64,000 nucleotides of DNA. Source: Algorimicrobium algoritergicola (GTDB taxonomy: Bacteria; Bacteroidota; Bacteroidia; Flavobacteriales; Flavobacteriaceae). The notes under the pieces were generated by a model. The model had not been told where the DNA came from. It was given only the letters and a program-made list of their open reading frames with translations, and ran no database searches. Positions 59,747 to 64,000 of this stretch are shown here, piece by piece. The position numbers and the translations under genes are program-made. Every line of letters starts with the position of its first letter. Positions within the stretch are counted from its first letter, which is position 1. The stretch lies in assembly GCF_008086165.1 (NCBI RefSeq), contig NZ_VSKL01000001.1, forward strand, positions 558,001-622,000, in the 5' to 3' direction.

Positions 59747-60229
59747 TTAATTCCAGCCACAAACAATACCTCCCATTATGGTTAAACTGATTATCCAATA
59801 ACCACTATTAATGAAAATGTATTTCCAGCTTTTACGTTCAAATAAAGCATTAATGGCCAAAATAGGAAATACAAATAACACGCCAGCCATACAACCGTGT
59901 AAAGCACCATGTTTAAAGGTTCTAAATGCTAAACCATAATCGTCCATAAAAGCTGTATATGATGGTAAAGCTTTTGTAACATCTCCACCAATCATACCTA
60001 AAGCTCCTGTTTGATGAATGGTTAAAAATTGTAAAATAAAGGCAATTAAAACCGAAAATATAAACGTGAGAATAAAAATTACAAACATGTTTCCACCTTT
60101 TAAAGATTCCGAAGTTAAACCAGATTCACGCATCCAAGCGTTTCCAAATGTTTTTGGGTTGTACCAAATAAAACCCAAAATTAACGGAACCAAAGCAGCA
60201 ACCAAAATGGCCAAAAAATTAATATCCAT
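59747..60229 (-). CDS. DUF1761 domain-containing membrane protein
   Basis: The 160-aa protein has four membrane segments (about 4-22, 50-70, 108-128, 138-157). The DUF1761 signature is visible: GFIWYNPKTFGNAWMRESG near 19-37 and FRTFKHGALHGCMAGVLFV near 101-119. Function unknown. It is followed by a strong terminator and appears monocistronic. Confidence 0.87.
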   Translation of the reverse strand: MDINFLAILVAALVPLILGFIWYNPKTFGNAWMRESGLTSESLKGGNMFVIFILTFIFSVLIAFILQFLTIHQTGALGMIGGDVTKALPSYTAFMDDYGLAFRTFKHGALHGCMAGVLFVFPILAINALFERKSWKYIFINSGYWIISLTIMGGIVCGWN

Positions 60230-60308
60230 AGTTAGTTATTTAAAAATTAGTATTTTAAAGATAGATGAAAATTATGATTTATAATTTTAACTGGATAAAA
60301 ATCAAAAA

Positions 60309-60339
60309 AAACCTTGAAACAATTCATGCTTCAAGGTTT
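60309..60339 (-). terminator. Intrinsic terminator after glnS
   Basis: AAACCTTGAA (60309-60318) and TTCAAGGTTT (60330-60339) form a 10-bp stem with an 11-nt loop, followed on the minus strand by a run of T. It lies 24 nt behind the glnS stop. Confidence 0.85.
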
Positions 60340-60363
60340 AAAATTACACTATATTTTTTGTGT

Positions 60364-62370
60364 TTATAACGCTTTTGCTTCAGCTACCAACAAGTCATTT
60401 TTGTCATCTAAAGCTTTAGCTATAAAATCATTAATTTCTGAATTTCGTTCTAATCCATTATTCAGTAAAACACCTAATGTTATCATGGTAATAATTCGCG
60501 TTCCTACCTTTTTTGCAGACGTTCCAAACAAGGGTTCAACATCACTATAGGATACATTTTGTGCCAATTCCTCAATTTCGGATTTTGCTTTTTCGCGATC
60601 GTCATCTTTCATTCTATCATACTTTTTCCCGTATGATTTTATCTGCTCAATAGCTGGTCTATTAGATTGTTGCTTTTGTTTTTGAGCTGGTTGATTTACA
60701 TCATTTTTGGGTTTTTGTTTTGCCCAAGTATCTCGTAATCCAACCGTTTTATTGAAAACTAATTTTTCTGAAGAACTATCATCATCCACATTAAAATAAC
60801 CCAAACGTTGAAATTGGAACCGCTCTCCTACTTTCGCTTCTAGCAAACTTGGTTCTACAAAAGCATCAATAATTTTTAAAGATTCTGGATTTATAAATTC
60901 CATAAAATCTTTATCAGCATGATTATCTGGAGCTTCATCTAAAAACAATCTATCATACTCGCGAACTTCCGCTTTAATAGCATGCTTTATAGACACCCAA
61001 TGCAAGGTTCCTTTTACTTTTTTCTCGGTATCTTCAGAATAGGTAGCATGAATTTCTGTAACGTTTCCATCAGCATCTTTCACTACTACTTCTGCTTTGA
61101 TGATGTAGGCATTTTTCAAGCGGACTTCACCTCCTAATTTCAATCGGAAAAACTTACTGCTTGCTTCTTCTTTAAAATCGTCTTTTTCAATATATAACTC
61201 ACGTGAAAAAGGTACTTTTCTAAAACCTGCCGAATCATCTTCCTGATTATTTTCAGCTTCCAACCACTCCTCTTTTCCTTCTGGATAATTAGTGATAACC
61301 AACTTAACAGGATCTAAAACAGCCATCACTCGCGGTGCCGTTTTATTTAAATCCTCACGAATACAGAATTCTAAAAGCGATACATCAATAACGTTATCAC
61401 GTTTGGCTACACCTACTTTATCAATAAACTGCCTGATAGAATCTGGTGTGTAACCACGACGACGCAAACCTGAAATGGTTGGCATTCGTGGATCGTCCCA
61501 ACCCGTTACAGCACCTTGCTCAACCAATTTAAGCAACTTACGTTTACTCATAATGGTATAACTTAAGTTCAATCGGGCAAATTCACGTTGTTTAGGAAGC
61601 ATTGGTAAGGCTTCTGGTTGGTATTTATACACTTGCTCCTTGAACCAGTCGTAAAGCTCTCTATGCGGCTTAAATTCAAGGGAACATAAAGAGTGTGAAA
61701 TTTGTTCCATATAATCACTTTCACCATGTGTCCAGTCGTACATGGGATAAATACACCAATCGTTTCCTGTTCTGTGGTGTGATTTCTTTAAAATACGATA
61801 CATCAACGGATCACGCATCAACATATTTGGATGTTGCATATCTATTTTTGCACGCAACACATGAGAACCTTCTGGAAATTCGCCAGCTTTCATGCGCTGA
61901 AATAAATCCTGATTTTCTTCAATACTACGATTTCGGTATGGACCATCAACACCAGGTTGTGTTGGTGTGCCTTTCTGTTCTGCCATAGCTTCACTGGATT
62001 GTGAATCTACATAGGCTTTTCCTTCTTTGATTAATGCTACTGCCCAATCATATAACTGCTGAAAATAATCAGATGAATACAATTCATTAGCCCATTGATA
62101 GCCTAACCATGCAATATCACGTTTGATAGCATCTACATATTCCTGCTCTTCTTTGGCTGGATTGGTATCATCAAAACGTAAGTTTACAGGTGCTTGGTAT
62201 TTTTCACCCAAGCCAAAACTAATACCAATAGCTTTGGTGTGACCAATATGTAAATAACCATTCGGTTCTGGTGGAAAACGAAAGCGAAGTGCTTCTTTTT
62301 CTAATCCATTCCTTAAATCTTCTTCTATAATATGCTCAATAAAATTGAGTGATTTTGTTTCTTCAGACAT
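60364..62370 (-). CDS. glnS: Glutamine--tRNA ligase with C-terminal extension
   Basis: This class I synthetase of 668 aa has PPEPNGYLHIGHTKA near 33-47, RFDDTNPAKEE near 66, and the KMSKS-type IMSKRKL near 269. The conserved body ends near residue 555 with GLRDTWAKQK. About 110 further residues follow: a Q/N/K-rich linker and a helical domain (IKSYGKKYDRMKDDDREKAK, then ITMITLGVLLNNGL). Annotation pipelines sometimes name this class a YqeY fusion, but the tail is shorter than YqeY. The frame is open to 62448, but a promoter at 62400-62407 puts the start at the ATG 62370. Confidence 0.95.
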   Translation of the reverse strand: MSEETKSLNFIEHIIEEDLRNGLEKEALRFRFPPEPNGYLHIGHTKAIGISFGLGEKYQAPVNLRFDDTNPAKEEQEYVDAIKRDIAWLGYQWANELYSSDYFQQLYDWAVALIKEGKAYVDSQSSEAMAEQKGTPTQPGVDGPYRNRSIEENQDLFQRMKAGEFPEGSHVLRAKIDMQHPNMLMRDPLMYRILKKSHHRTGNDWCIYPMYDWTHGESDYMEQISHSLCSLEFKPHRELYDWFKEQVYKYQPEALPMLPKQREFARLNLSYTIMSKRKLLKLVEQGAVTGWDDPRMPTISGLRRRGYTPDSIRQFIDKVGVAKRDNVIDVSLLEFCIREDLNKTAPRVMAVLDPVKLVITNYPEGKEEWLEAENNQEDDSAGFRKVPFSRELYIEKDDFKEEASSKFFRLKLGGEVRLKNAYIIKAEVVVKDADGNVTEIHATYSEDTEKKVKGTLHWVSIKHAIKAEVREYDRLFLDEAPDNHADKDFMEFINPESLKIIDAFVEPSLLEAKVGERFQFQRLGYFNVDDDSSSEKLVFNKTVGLRDTWAKQKPKNDVNQPAQKQKQQSNRPAIEQIKSYGKKYDRMKDDDREKAKSEIEELAQNVSYSDVEPLFGTSAKKVGTRIITMITLGVLLNNGLERNSEINDFIAKALDDKNDLLVAEAKAL

Positions 62371-62399
62371 ACGCTGTTCTCTATTCGAAATATGAAGCA

Positions 62400-62407
62400 C
62401 AAAATTA
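62400..62407 (-). promoter_or_regulatory. -7 promoter element of glnS
   Basis: TAATTTTG on the minus strand matches TAnnTTTG, 29 nt before the ATG at 62370. Confidence 0.5.
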
Positions 62408-62470
62408 GGTAATTTTAGACTAATTGTAACATTTGAATGATTTTTCACACCTATAATTAAAACTTATACC

Positions 62471-62680
62471 ATGCAACACAGAAATTACGAATGTCCAAAA
62501 TGCCATAATCGGACTTACGATATGGATCAAATGCAGGCAACAGGCGGTTTATTTACAAAACTTTTTAACATCCAGAATAAAAAATTTACGTCTGTAACAT
62601 GTCAAAAATGTACGTATACCGAATTTTATAAATCGAAAACTAGTAGCATTAGTAATATATTTGACTTCTTTACAAATTAA
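62471..62680 (+). CDS. Small zinc-ribbon protein
   Basis: The 69-aa protein carries two CxxC knuckles, CPKC at 8-11 and CQKC at 44-47, separated by a basic, phenylalanine-rich stretch (GLFTKLFNIQNKKF), with a C-terminal ISNIFDFFTN. It fits the YpzJ-like nucleic-acid-binding zinc-ribbon group. The role is unknown. It is divergent from glnS (22 nt between open frames) and 69 nt before folB. Confidence 0.75.
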   Translation: MQHRNYECPKCHNRTYDMDQMQATGGLFTKLFNIQNKKFTSVTCQKCTYTEFYKSKTSSISNIFDFFTN

Positions 62681-62737
62681 ATAACTTTACGATATTAATT
62701 TCTTTCAGAATTTCTCTTGAAGTCACCTTCTGAATAG

Positions 62738-62745
62738 TATTTTTG
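62738..62745 (+). promoter_or_regulatory. -7 promoter element directly before folB
   Basis: TATTTTTG matches TAnnTTTG, with only 4 nt (CAAT) before the ATG, as at holB. A leaderless mRNA is predicted. Confidence 0.55.
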
Positions 62746-62749
62746 CAAT

Positions 62750-63118
62750 ATGGGAACAATTAAAGTGGAAAATATTCGGGTTTTTGCCAATCATGGTTGC
62801 TTAAAGGAAGAAACCAAAATTGGTAGTGATTACCGTGTGGATTTAGAGATAAAAGCCAATTTACAAACATCAGCCAAGACAGATTTACTTCAAGATACGG
62901 TTGACTATGTATTTCTAAATAAGGTGATTCGTGAAGAAATGGCACAACCTTCCTATTTACTAGAAACGGTTGCCAAACGTATTTTAAATCGCATTTTTAA
63001 AGAAGATACCATGGTTAGTAAAGCCACGGTTTGGGTCAGTAAAATTAATCCACCTATTGGAGGCGATGTGGAAATGGTAACAATAAAAATGAGTGACAAG
63101 CGAAAAAAGCAAAAGTAA
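62750..63118 (+). CDS. folB: Dihydroneopterin aldolase
   Basis: This enzyme of folate synthesis splits dihydroneopterin into 6-hydroxymethyl-dihydropterin and glycolaldehyde. The 122-aa protein has the family pattern VENIRVFANHGCLKEETKIG at 5-24, DTVDYVFLNKVI near 48-59, LLETVAKRI near 70-78 with the catalytic-type glutamate, and NPPIGGDVEMV near 102. Length is typical. No other folate gene is close by. Confidence 0.93.
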   Translation: MGTIKVENIRVFANHGCLKEETKIGSDYRVDLEIKANLQTSAKTDLLQDTVDYVFLNKVIREEMAQPSYLLETVAKRILNRIFKEDTMVSKATVWVSKINPPIGGDVEMVTIKMSDKRKKQK

Positions 63119-63142
63119 GTAGCGAAACACTTATATTTTTTT

Positions 63143-63150
63143 TACATTTG
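63143..63150 (+). promoter_or_regulatory. -7 promoter element of tRNA-Cys
   Basis: TACATTTG matches TAnnTTTG, 46 nt before the mature tRNA 5' end. Confidence 0.5.
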
Positions 63151-63172
63151 CCACCACGTTAGAAATAACAAG

Positions 63173-63192
63173 ATACCTTTTTTCAAAGGTAT
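63173..63192 (+). other. Hairpin in the tRNA-Cys 5' leader
   Basis: ATACCTTT (63173-63180) and AAAGGTAT (63185-63192) form a perfect 8-bp stem with a 4-nt loop, ending 4 nt before the tRNA. It could affect 5' processing by RNase P; untested. Confidence 0.45.
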
Positions 63193-63196
63193 TTAA

Positions 63197-63267
63197 GGTG
63201 TCGTGGCCGAGTGGCTAGGCAGTGGTCTGCAACACCATCTACAGCGGTTCGAATCCGCTCGACACCT
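63197..63267 (+). tRNA. tRNA-Cys (GCA)
   Basis: A full cloverleaf can be drawn. The 7-bp acceptor stem is GGTGTCG/CGACACC (63197-63203 with 63260-63266), the D stem is GCC/GGC, and the anticodon stem GTGGT/ACCAT holds loop CTGCAAC with anticodon GCA at 63229-63231. The T arm is AGCGG-TTCGAAT-CCGCT and the discriminator base is T. CCA is not encoded. The D stem is short. It is transcribed alone from the TACATTTG promoter and is followed by a terminator hairpin and a tandem array of copies of its own 3' end. Confidence 0.95.
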
Positions 63268-63270
63268 CTA

Positions 63271-63305
63271 AAAAAGAGTTACTTTTAAAGTAGCTCTTTT
63301 TTTTT
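63271..63305 (+). terminator. Terminator of tRNA-Cys
   Basis: AAAAGAGTTACTT and AAGTAGCTCTTTT form a stem (with one G-T wobble) followed by a run of T, 3 nt behind the tRNA. A second copy with small changes lies at 63485-63520 in repeat unit two. Confidence 0.8.
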
Positions 63306-63454
63306 GTTTTAAATTTTTAGAAAATTTTGAGTAATGTGGTTACAGCGGCTCGAGGCTTATTAATTGACACCTCAAAGAACCTTCAACTTATGTTAGAGGT
63401 TTTTTTCTAATTTTTAAGAAAAATTAATTAAAGATAAACCATCTACAGCGGTTC

Positions 63455-63470
63455 TCCCGAAATTTCGGGA
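63455..63470. repeat. 16-bp palindrome replacing the T-loop, copy 1
   Basis: TCCCGAAATTTCGGGA is a perfect palindrome placed between AGCGGTTC and CGCTCGACACC of the tRNA-like sequence. Confidence 0.85.
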
Positions 63471-63669
63471 CGCTCGACACCTCTAAAAAAAGGGTTACTT
63501 TAAAAGTAGCTCTTTTTTTTGTTTTAAATTTTTAGAAAACTTTGAGTAATGTGGTTACAGCGGCTCGAGGCTTATTAATTGACACCTTAAAGAACCTTCA
63601 ACTTATATTAGAGGTTTTTTTCTAATTTTTAAGAAAAATTAATTAAAGATAAACCAACTACAGCGGTTC

Positions 63670-63685
63670 TCCCGAAATTTCGGGA
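63670..63685. repeat. 16-bp palindrome replacing the T-loop, copy 2
   Basis: This is identical to copy 1 and at the same place in the third, partial unit. The tRNA-like sequence breaks off 9 nt later at GACA. Confidence 0.85.
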
Positions 63686-63714
63686 CGCTCGACAATTTTA
63701 AAGGTTTTGGGATT

Positions 63715-63749
63715 AAGACCTAACAGGTTTCTAAAACCTGTTAGGTCTT
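63715..63749. repeat. Long REP-like palindrome / terminator
   Basis: AAGACCTAACAGGTTT and AAACCTGTTAGGTCTT form a perfect 16-bp stem with a 3-nt loop (CTA). It lies between the tRNA array and the convergent partial gene. ACCTAACAGGTTT-type palindromes recur between genes in flavobacteria, from memory. It may terminate transcription from either side. Confidence 0.7.
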
Positions 63750-63780
63750 TAAGTAAACAAGCTTATTAAATAGCGACGTA

Positions 63781-64000
63781 TTACTTGGTTGTCACTTCAC
63801 AAAAGCAGCGAAAACCTGTGTAGGTATTTGGTAATATAATTTGAGTTTCAGATTTCCAATTCTCACCAAAATATTGATCATCACCAGTAATTTCCGAAAT
63901 ATTATAGCTAACATATTTCTTTTTAGGATGTTTCTTTATTTTTAATTCTAATGGATTATCTGCTTCATAAGCTTTAAAACGCTTTGAAGCTTTAAAATAT
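63781..64000 (-). CDS. C-terminal fragment of an unrecognised protein (runs off the window)
   Basis: The minus strand is open from the window edge to a TAA at 63781-63783, giving 72 codons of a C-terminus. The fragment reads YFKASKRFKAYEADNP, then a K-rich stretch, SYNISEITGDDQYFGENWKS, and ends TYTGFRCFCEVTTK. The closing GFRC motif resembles the end of formylglycine-generating enzyme (FGE/SUMF1-like) proteins, but the usual GGSW and arginine motifs are not in the visible part. Identity is therefore open. Confidence 0.55.
   Translation of the reverse strand, partial: YFKASKRFKAYEADNPLELKIKKHPKKKYVSYNISEITGDDQYFGENWKSETQIILPNTYTGFRCFCEVTTK

Follow-up and report, generated by a model that had tools for sequence, protein, structure and literature searches.

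We found that the tandem array behind tRNA-Cys in the window (the whole 64,000-nucleotide stretch analysed, C11:558001-622000 of a 3.54-Mb genome in 29 contigs) is probably the partly decayed footprint, devoid of an open reading frame (ORF), of a family of selfish GIY-YIG elements nested at tRNA genes in Bacteroidota. A complete element of this family would be a small stand-alone GIY-YIG gene beside an intact tRNA gene, bounded by a partial tRNA copy in which the presumed cut site is swapped for a short hairpin. Because the GIY-YIG ORF is missing, the window array is no complete element.

The first-pass annotation had reported tandem copies of the tRNA-Cys 3' end with periods of 204 and 215 bp, in two of which GAATC of the T-loop was replaced exactly and the flanks were kept. 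We confirmed this observation, which proved more general than could be seen locally; the interpretation placed on it was supported in part. ACCATCTACAGCGGTTC starts at 63234, 63438, and 63653 (the last with one mismatch), giving spacings of 204 and 215, and two segments of 190 nt, 63298-63487 and 63513-63702, share 96% identity. In copies A2 and A3 (Table 1), two parts of the tRNA remain, one running from the anticodon-arm end to C56 and the other from nt 62 onward, with AGCGGTTC and CGCTCGAC preserved around TCCCGAAATTTCGGGA. At 63438-63518 and at 63653-63693 there is a partial copy beside an intact tRNA, a hairpin at its junction, and an exact local replacement.

Table 1. Features of the tRNA-Cys array (window coordinates) and the second marked locus of this genome (contig coordinates)
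Feature	Position	Strand	Remarks
Intact tRNA-Cys (GCA)	63197..63268	+	ARAGORN; Rfam gives 63197-63267; T-loop GTTC followed by GAATC
Terminator-like inverted repeat and T-run behind tRNA-Cys	63270..63303	+	
Unit B1, decayed partial copy (TTACAGCGGCTCGAGGC..GACACCTC) and terminator-like hairpin	63340..63406	+	limits by eye
Copy A2, 5' part, ACCATCTACAGCGGTTC, anticodon-arm end to C56	63438..63454	+	
Hairpin mark TCCCGAAATTTCGGGA in copy A2, in place of T-loop nt 57-61 (GAATC)	63455..63470	+	
Copy A2, 3' part, CGCTCGACACCTC (acceptor side), and terminator of tRNA-Cys	63471..63518	+	
Unit B2, second decayed copy, 215 bp past B1	63555..63621	+	limits by eye
Copy A3, 5' part, ACCAACTACAGCGGTTC	63653..63669	+	
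Hairpin mark TCCCGAAATTTCGGGA in copy A3	63670..63685	+	
Copy A3, 3' part, CGCTCGAC	63686..63693	+	homology stops after it
tRNA-Arg, this genome (G000)	C22:610855-610928		one marked copy 97 nt downstream (L363, L382; G000:C22:610855-611111)

The marked copies alternate with the decayed units B1 and B2. The half-periods of roughly 102 bp proposed earlier are present as TTACAGCGGCTCGAGGCTTATTAATTGACACCTC plus a terminator-like hairpin from about 63340 and again, with one base changed, from about 63555; judged by eye, these units are decayed. A B-like unit also lies behind tRNA-Cys of congener G005, and none was seen in the 700 nt from the tRNA-Cys start in congeners G001 to G004. Copies and hairpins were judged by eye in the reading of the array, of the congener tRNA-Cys loci, and of the nuclease-first loci described below.

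The exact 16-nt palindrome occurs at two places in the 3.54-Mb genome, both inside the array. Its 14-nt core, with up to two mismatches, was found twice in the window against 0.08 expected, again both times in the array, and looser variants (CCCGA-N4-TCGGG-N-C) occur at two further places in the genome, one of them in 16S rRNA. Looking beside other tRNAs, as had been proposed, we found a similar hairpin mark in relatives and the exact palindrome nowhere else in this genome. The array is flanked by FolB upstream and by an FGE-sulfatase-domain gene and a LysE-type gene downstream. It holds no GIY-YIG gene, and there is no GIY-YIG ORF between tRNA-Cys and the marked copy; the three GIY-YIG matches in this genome are all far from all 36 listed tRNA matches. 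That this architecture is shared by many independent assemblies, a few of which consist of one contig, argues against an assembly artefact; the copy number here may be wrong.

Directly behind the array, at 63715-63749, lies a member of a longer palindrome family (GACCTAACAGG../GACCTCACAGG..). It recurs at L040, at L342 (2540), at G000:C24:128303 (L082), and behind tRNA-Cys of G004; in the L082 copy the centre is replaced by TCCCGACATTTCGGGA.

To follow the mark beyond this locus, we scanned 397 family genomes with a pattern made up of GTTC, YCCCGA, a gap of 2 to 8 nt, and TCGGGR. The pattern matched in 46 of the 397 and its backward-read control in one; GTTC and the arms are demanded by the pattern itself, which favours the sharing of arms among T-loop marks. 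We retrieved 75 stretches covering most of the places listed, a set that excludes the window's own marks, three G065 places, the Cys array of G012, and places counted but not listed, and we counted hits with identical context (60 nt on each side) once. The family set comprised 99 distinct hits, of which 77 had a tRNA on the same strand within 2.6 kb. The 3' part of the neighbouring intact tRNA was matched (at least 9 of 12 nt) by 67 of the 99. Exactly 5 nt were missing in 65 of these 67, and 62 were downstream of the tRNA. Eleven isotypes were marked (Phe 20, Leu 9, Cys 8, Val 7, Ala 5, Pro 5, Tyr 5, Gly 3, Arg 2, Asp 2, and Thr 1).

A wider contig set came from a scan over 84,980 species, with at least 119 stretches. 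Among the matches listed, it held 159 distinct hits, of which 95 were flank-matched, with exactly 5 nt removed (register 0) in 72, register +1 in 16, and -1 in 7. As a null, randomly drawn tRNAs of other isotypes passed the flank threshold in 34 of 3,066 trials for the family set and 19 of 4,301 for the contig set. The hits left out (32 in the family set and 64 in the contig set, one of the latter at an edge) fell below the threshold or had no same-strand tRNA, and they include D-arm marks, tRNA-less loci, and an interspersed GGGCGTTC repeat. Flank-matched hosts included Flavobacterium, Maribacter, Psychroflexus, Gillisia, Polaribacter, Ulvibacter, Algoriphagus, and Chitinophaga, together with metagenome-assembled genomes labelled Chlorobiota and Magasanikbacteria. 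T-loops of many isotypes carry the mark across many genera, which supports the idea of a mobile element acting with T-arm precision.

Tandem arrays of marks occur at several isotypes. The largest array, at tRNA-Arg (L300), has 10 marks at 85-86 bp; further arrays have 7 marks at about 127 bp (Leu) and 6 marks at 82 bp (Val). In the units read, spacing ran from 35 to about 390 bp, with one pair at 617 bp, and the content was either nothing or a GIY-YIG gene. An interspersed repeat, (G)GCGTTC-hairpin-[TG]CGGGCTTT, occurs with no tRNA nearby at L160-L163, L170, L173, and L178 and has GTTC and the CCCCGA..TCGGGG arms in common with the T-loop marks. In G065 (L063/L201), a pseudo-tRNA-Phe upstream of the intact tRNA-Phe carries two hairpin marks, one in the T-loop and one between the D-arm and the anticodon arm, where CAATG is replaced.

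Some of the marked loci carry a partner gene. In tRNA-Phe arrays, whose units are roughly 370 bp long, an ORF of about 94 codons lies between the tRNA and the mark; in most Phe units it starts 41-67 nt past the tRNA and ends 5-17 nt ahead of the mark. The corresponding gap is 4-54 nt in Ala, Val, and Met units, and the placement of the ORF differs at L131, L153, and L177. All four ORFs tested matched PF01541 (GIY-YIG) with E values of 6e-10 to 3e-15. Y6, Y17, G19, R27, H31, and E65, which we take to be the catalytic residues of GIY-YIG enzymes, are invariant in 16 of 16 partner ORFs, all from elements elsewhere than the window locus. The fold model of the partner protein is confident (pLDDT 94).

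A same-strand GIY-YIG match lay within 1.5 kb at 10 of 43 family loci and, among the matches listed, at 23 of 68 contig loci; no opposite-strand match lay within 1.5 kb in any of the 111 marked rows. These rows (43 plus 68) represent at most 106 loci, because five loci occur in both sets. In total, 33 of the 111 T-loop-marked rows had a GIY-YIG match and 78 lacked the partner ORF (for the contig part, among the matches listed). With the same limit on the contig part, a same-strand GIY-YIG gene was present in 26 of 27 rows with the mark 313-370 nt behind the tRNA, in 3 of 71 with the mark at most 155 nt behind it, in 4 of 8 at other distances, and in none of 5 with the mark upstream of the tRNA. 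There are therefore two main size classes, and the window array belongs to the short, ORF-less one.

Some further GIY-YIG loci were seen in these surveys. L408 (G200:C1:541797-544319, from a one-contig genome) holds six similar GIY-YIG units spaced 378-381 bp apart, together with a truncated one. At L329, L331, L333, G023:C4, and G017:C10, GIY-YIG matches begin no more than about 330 bp from a contig end, which would fit assemblies breaking at these repeats. Palindromes of the form ATTCCTGC-N4-GCAGGAAT adjoin GIY-YIG genes at L335 (1463 and 1786), L334, and L337; at L335 they lie on both sides of the gene, and the fetched stretch has no tRNA. GIY-YIG genes between palindromes outside tRNAs are possibly a related type of element.

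This genome itself holds a second case. We examined 30 of its loci, with 32 distinct tRNAs (of 36 matches), for partial copies and, by reading, found two real ones, at Cys and at Arg, both with hairpins. In the tRNA-Arg copy (Table 1), ATTCCGCGCAAAGCGGAA stands in place of the anticodon arm, and the hairpin differs from the Cys mark. We compared this locus across G000, G002, G003, and G004. Congener G002 is identical to G000 through the tRNA-Arg terminator and has no copy, which makes it an empty site; G004 has no copy either; and in G003 an intact 103-aa GIY-YIG ORF lies between two marked copies. The locus shows gain or loss of a copy within the genus and both the ORF-bearing and the ORF-less state. 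In G000 it is the first copy, not the marked one, that has the terminator of G002, so simple insertion at the cut site is not favoured.

We also searched from the nuclease side, demanding no hairpin, with a nuclease profile in 60 relatives and 50 chosen genomes, and inspected 55 fetched loci. An intact tRNA was present in the fetched stretch at 29 of 34 loci with E at most 1e-14, and at 27 of these 29 visual inspection showed a partial copy with a hairpin at its junction (the exceptions were L332 and the unclear L421); 10 of the 27 had already been found through marks. Weaker matches had a tRNA nearby in 5 of 21 cases. The sample is not blind, because the profile was built from ORFs of marked loci, nearly all of them beside a tRNA. 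Strong matches (E at most 1e-14) occurred in 17 of 25 marked versus 4 of 25 unmarked genomes. Excluding ten marked genomes with the nuclease at a marked locus left 7 of 15 versus 4 of 25 (p = 0.04), and with co-located loci removed in this way the comparison weakly supports the element reading.

These searches returned hairpin-marked partial copies of tRNA-Phe, -Asn, -Val, -Met, -Arg, -Pro, and -Leu. The part replaced by the hairpin is the anticodon arm in Val, Arg, and Pro, the anticodon loop in Met, and the 5 nt before the T-stem in Asn; 5'-type elements have a copy of a 5' part of the tRNA, placed upstream of the intact gene. Hairpin sequences were of the types YCCCGA, TTCCG, TCACGCC, and CCTGCC and differ among anticodon-arm, D-arm, and T-loop marks. 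A nuclease tree (n = 60; 93 columns, many forks without resolution, near-copies included) clusters by target, with a Phe T-loop clade of 22 (95/88) and 9 target-label changes versus a shuffled mean of 24.4. Of 13 GIY-YIG rows without a tRNA, 11 form one clade (99/99) apart from the tRNA-nested nucleases, and two, L336 among them, group with 5'-type Arg nucleases. At L414 (1243-1329), a full-length tRNA-Asn with a hairpin replacing the nucleotides before the T-stem lies directly upstream of the intact tRNA-Asn. ARAGORN nonetheless predicts a tRNA at the marked copy, so that annotations may list it among functional genes.

The closest parallel is SegB, a stand-alone GIY-YIG enzyme of phages T4/T6 whose gene lies beside tRNA genes. 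The report on the T6 enzyme (PMC13096335) states that it cuts inside tRNA genes, prefers RAWTSGAAC (23 of 83 mapped sites), and drives a tandem amplification that requires its catalytic residues and homologous recombination through UvsX/UvsY functions. The reverse complement of that motif as given there, GTTCSAWTY, corresponds to nt 53-61 of the tRNA T-loop, of which the hairpin takes out SAWTY and spares GTTC. The replaced 5-mers fit SAWTY at 37 of 43 family loci versus 13 of 32 tRNAs of this genome (p = 4e-5) and less strongly in the contig set (43 of 68 among the matches listed, p = 0.028); in both tests loci are not independent and isotypes are uneven. From the SegB motif, the loss of SAWTY to the hairpin, and the fit of the targets, we infer that the T-loop nucleases cut the tRNA gene between GTTC and RANYC and that the extra copy is uncuttable.

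We propose that the element homes as follows. In the T-loop class, the nuclease would cut the T-loop of a tRNA gene at this site, and the break would be repaired by recombination with an element-bearing copy, delivering the ORF and a marked 3' copy and leaving the upstream tRNA whole. Repeated breakage and recombination would grow or shrink the tandem units. The hairpin would protect the extra copy from cutting and render it of no use as a tRNA. The mark could double as an addiction device, since a tRNA gene that lost the element through the short repeats would be left with the hairpin. ORF-less arrays such as that of the window would derive from, or depend on, ORF-bearing elements.

Several points count against the element reading. 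Since the presumed cut site survives in the intact tRNA, an active enzyme would cleave its own host. SegB belongs to phages, and the motif was present at the minority of its mapped sites noted above. The sequence of the hairpin varies from one class to another, so its role is putative. This genome has no GIY-YIG gene at the array or beside any tRNA, most marked rows are without an ORF, and 23 of 95 contig-set hits, among the matches listed, are one nucleotide off register.

An alternative is that slippage duplicates tRNA 3' ends with their terminators without any selfish agent, that copies last only if a hairpin abolishes their likeness to a tRNA, and that the nucleases are passengers. The majority of ORF-less arrays and a smallest unit of 35 bp would suit this account. 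However, the exact junction and the YCCCGA arms common to genera and isotypes call for a specific process (arms being selected by our pattern), and the nucleases lie on one strand only, immediately before the mark in most Phe units, and cluster by target. We consider local duplication unlikely.

We think it distinctly improbable that a RAYT (Y1) transposase moves REP-like palindromes with a preference for GTTC in the T-arms of duplicated tRNA ends. The T-loop hairpin does sit behind a fixed GTTC, which our pattern demanded, and PMC3733652 and PMC6006769 describe REPs as short hairpins behind a fixed tetranucleotide with a proposed dedicated mover enzyme. A separate Y1 subclass, 2.6, with atypical structures is described for Bacteroidetes, and this genome has one Y1_Tnp gene. 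However, the mark replaces 5 nt of a cut-site-like sequence in partial tRNA copies and is not an insertion, contrary to the earlier suggestion of a palindrome inserting in T-arms, and the linked gene is GIY-YIG. We dropped RAYT, and with it the suggested REP-like agent, because the many dispersed copies expected were not found in this genome and the lone Y1_Tnp gene has no YCCCGA hairpin in the stretch read (L381 1201-2300). The notion that all hairpins form one REP family is contradicted by the differing sequences of anticodon-arm, D-arm, and T-loop marks.

The array might instead function as RNA, either as tandem terminators or through transcripts like the rtT RNA of E. coli tyrT, and its units do retain a terminator-like hairpin. 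In E. coli, tandem repeats behind tyrT each carry the tRNA-Tyr 3' end; we know of no hairpin-replaced T-loop or nuclease gene there. Within 60000-64000, Rfam at E up to 1 gave no rtT match, and only the tRNA scored above the gathering threshold. Presence and absence among congeners speak against a conserved role, and we judge this reading very unlikely.

Integrases acting in the T-arm leave tandem tRNA 3' ends that start in the T-arm, as seen here, and repeated insertion, with each copy the att site of a lost island, had been suggested earlier. We dropped this reading as hardly probable at all, because no integrase was found among ten ORFs scanned with Pfam (of 11 of at least 80 aa in C11:620000-632000, around and downstream of the array; nine had matches); the closely spaced units are empty or hold GIY-YIG, the hairpin destroys the crossover region, and 5'-type copies and D-arm and anticodon marks occur.

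Unlike the proposed elements, SegB is a phage gene that amplifies a segment with a full-length tRNA, and partial tRNA copies and hairpin marks are absent from the available part of its description (PMC13096335). A tblastn search of 50,697 phage records with one Phe-type protein found nothing at E up to 1e-3, so carriage by phages is unsupported at that sensitivity. The closest solved sequences are the small GIY-YIG proteins of UPF0213 (PDB 1zg2 and 1ywl; E about 5e-8), which are of similar size, and 1zg2 was the sole Foldseek match with E at most 0.001 to the predicted fold of the partner protein. Slx1 and I-TevI followed at E values of 0.02 to 0.4; SLX1 is much weaker, at 0.003 by sequence and 0.02 or worse by fold. 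Searches of open-licence papers yielded no description of hairpin-marked partial tRNAs combined with GIY-YIG. More tentatively, these elements may be a new selfish class, widespread in Bacteroidota, of minimal GIY-YIG homing endonucleases with isotype-specific tRNA targets that keep the tRNA whole beside a cut-proof, hairpin-marked copy.

The proposal is directly testable, because the likely cut site of a nuclease can be read off the tRNA that is marked. If it is true, some small GIY-YIG genes of bacterial chromosomes would parasitize tRNA genes at specific sites, and a single explanation would cover odd partial tRNAs that carry foreign hairpins. Amplification of the kind driven by SegB would extend from phages to bacterial chromosomes, and the family would be a source of new minimal sequence-specific nucleases. 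It would also illustrate how an essential gene can house an element and still stay intact.
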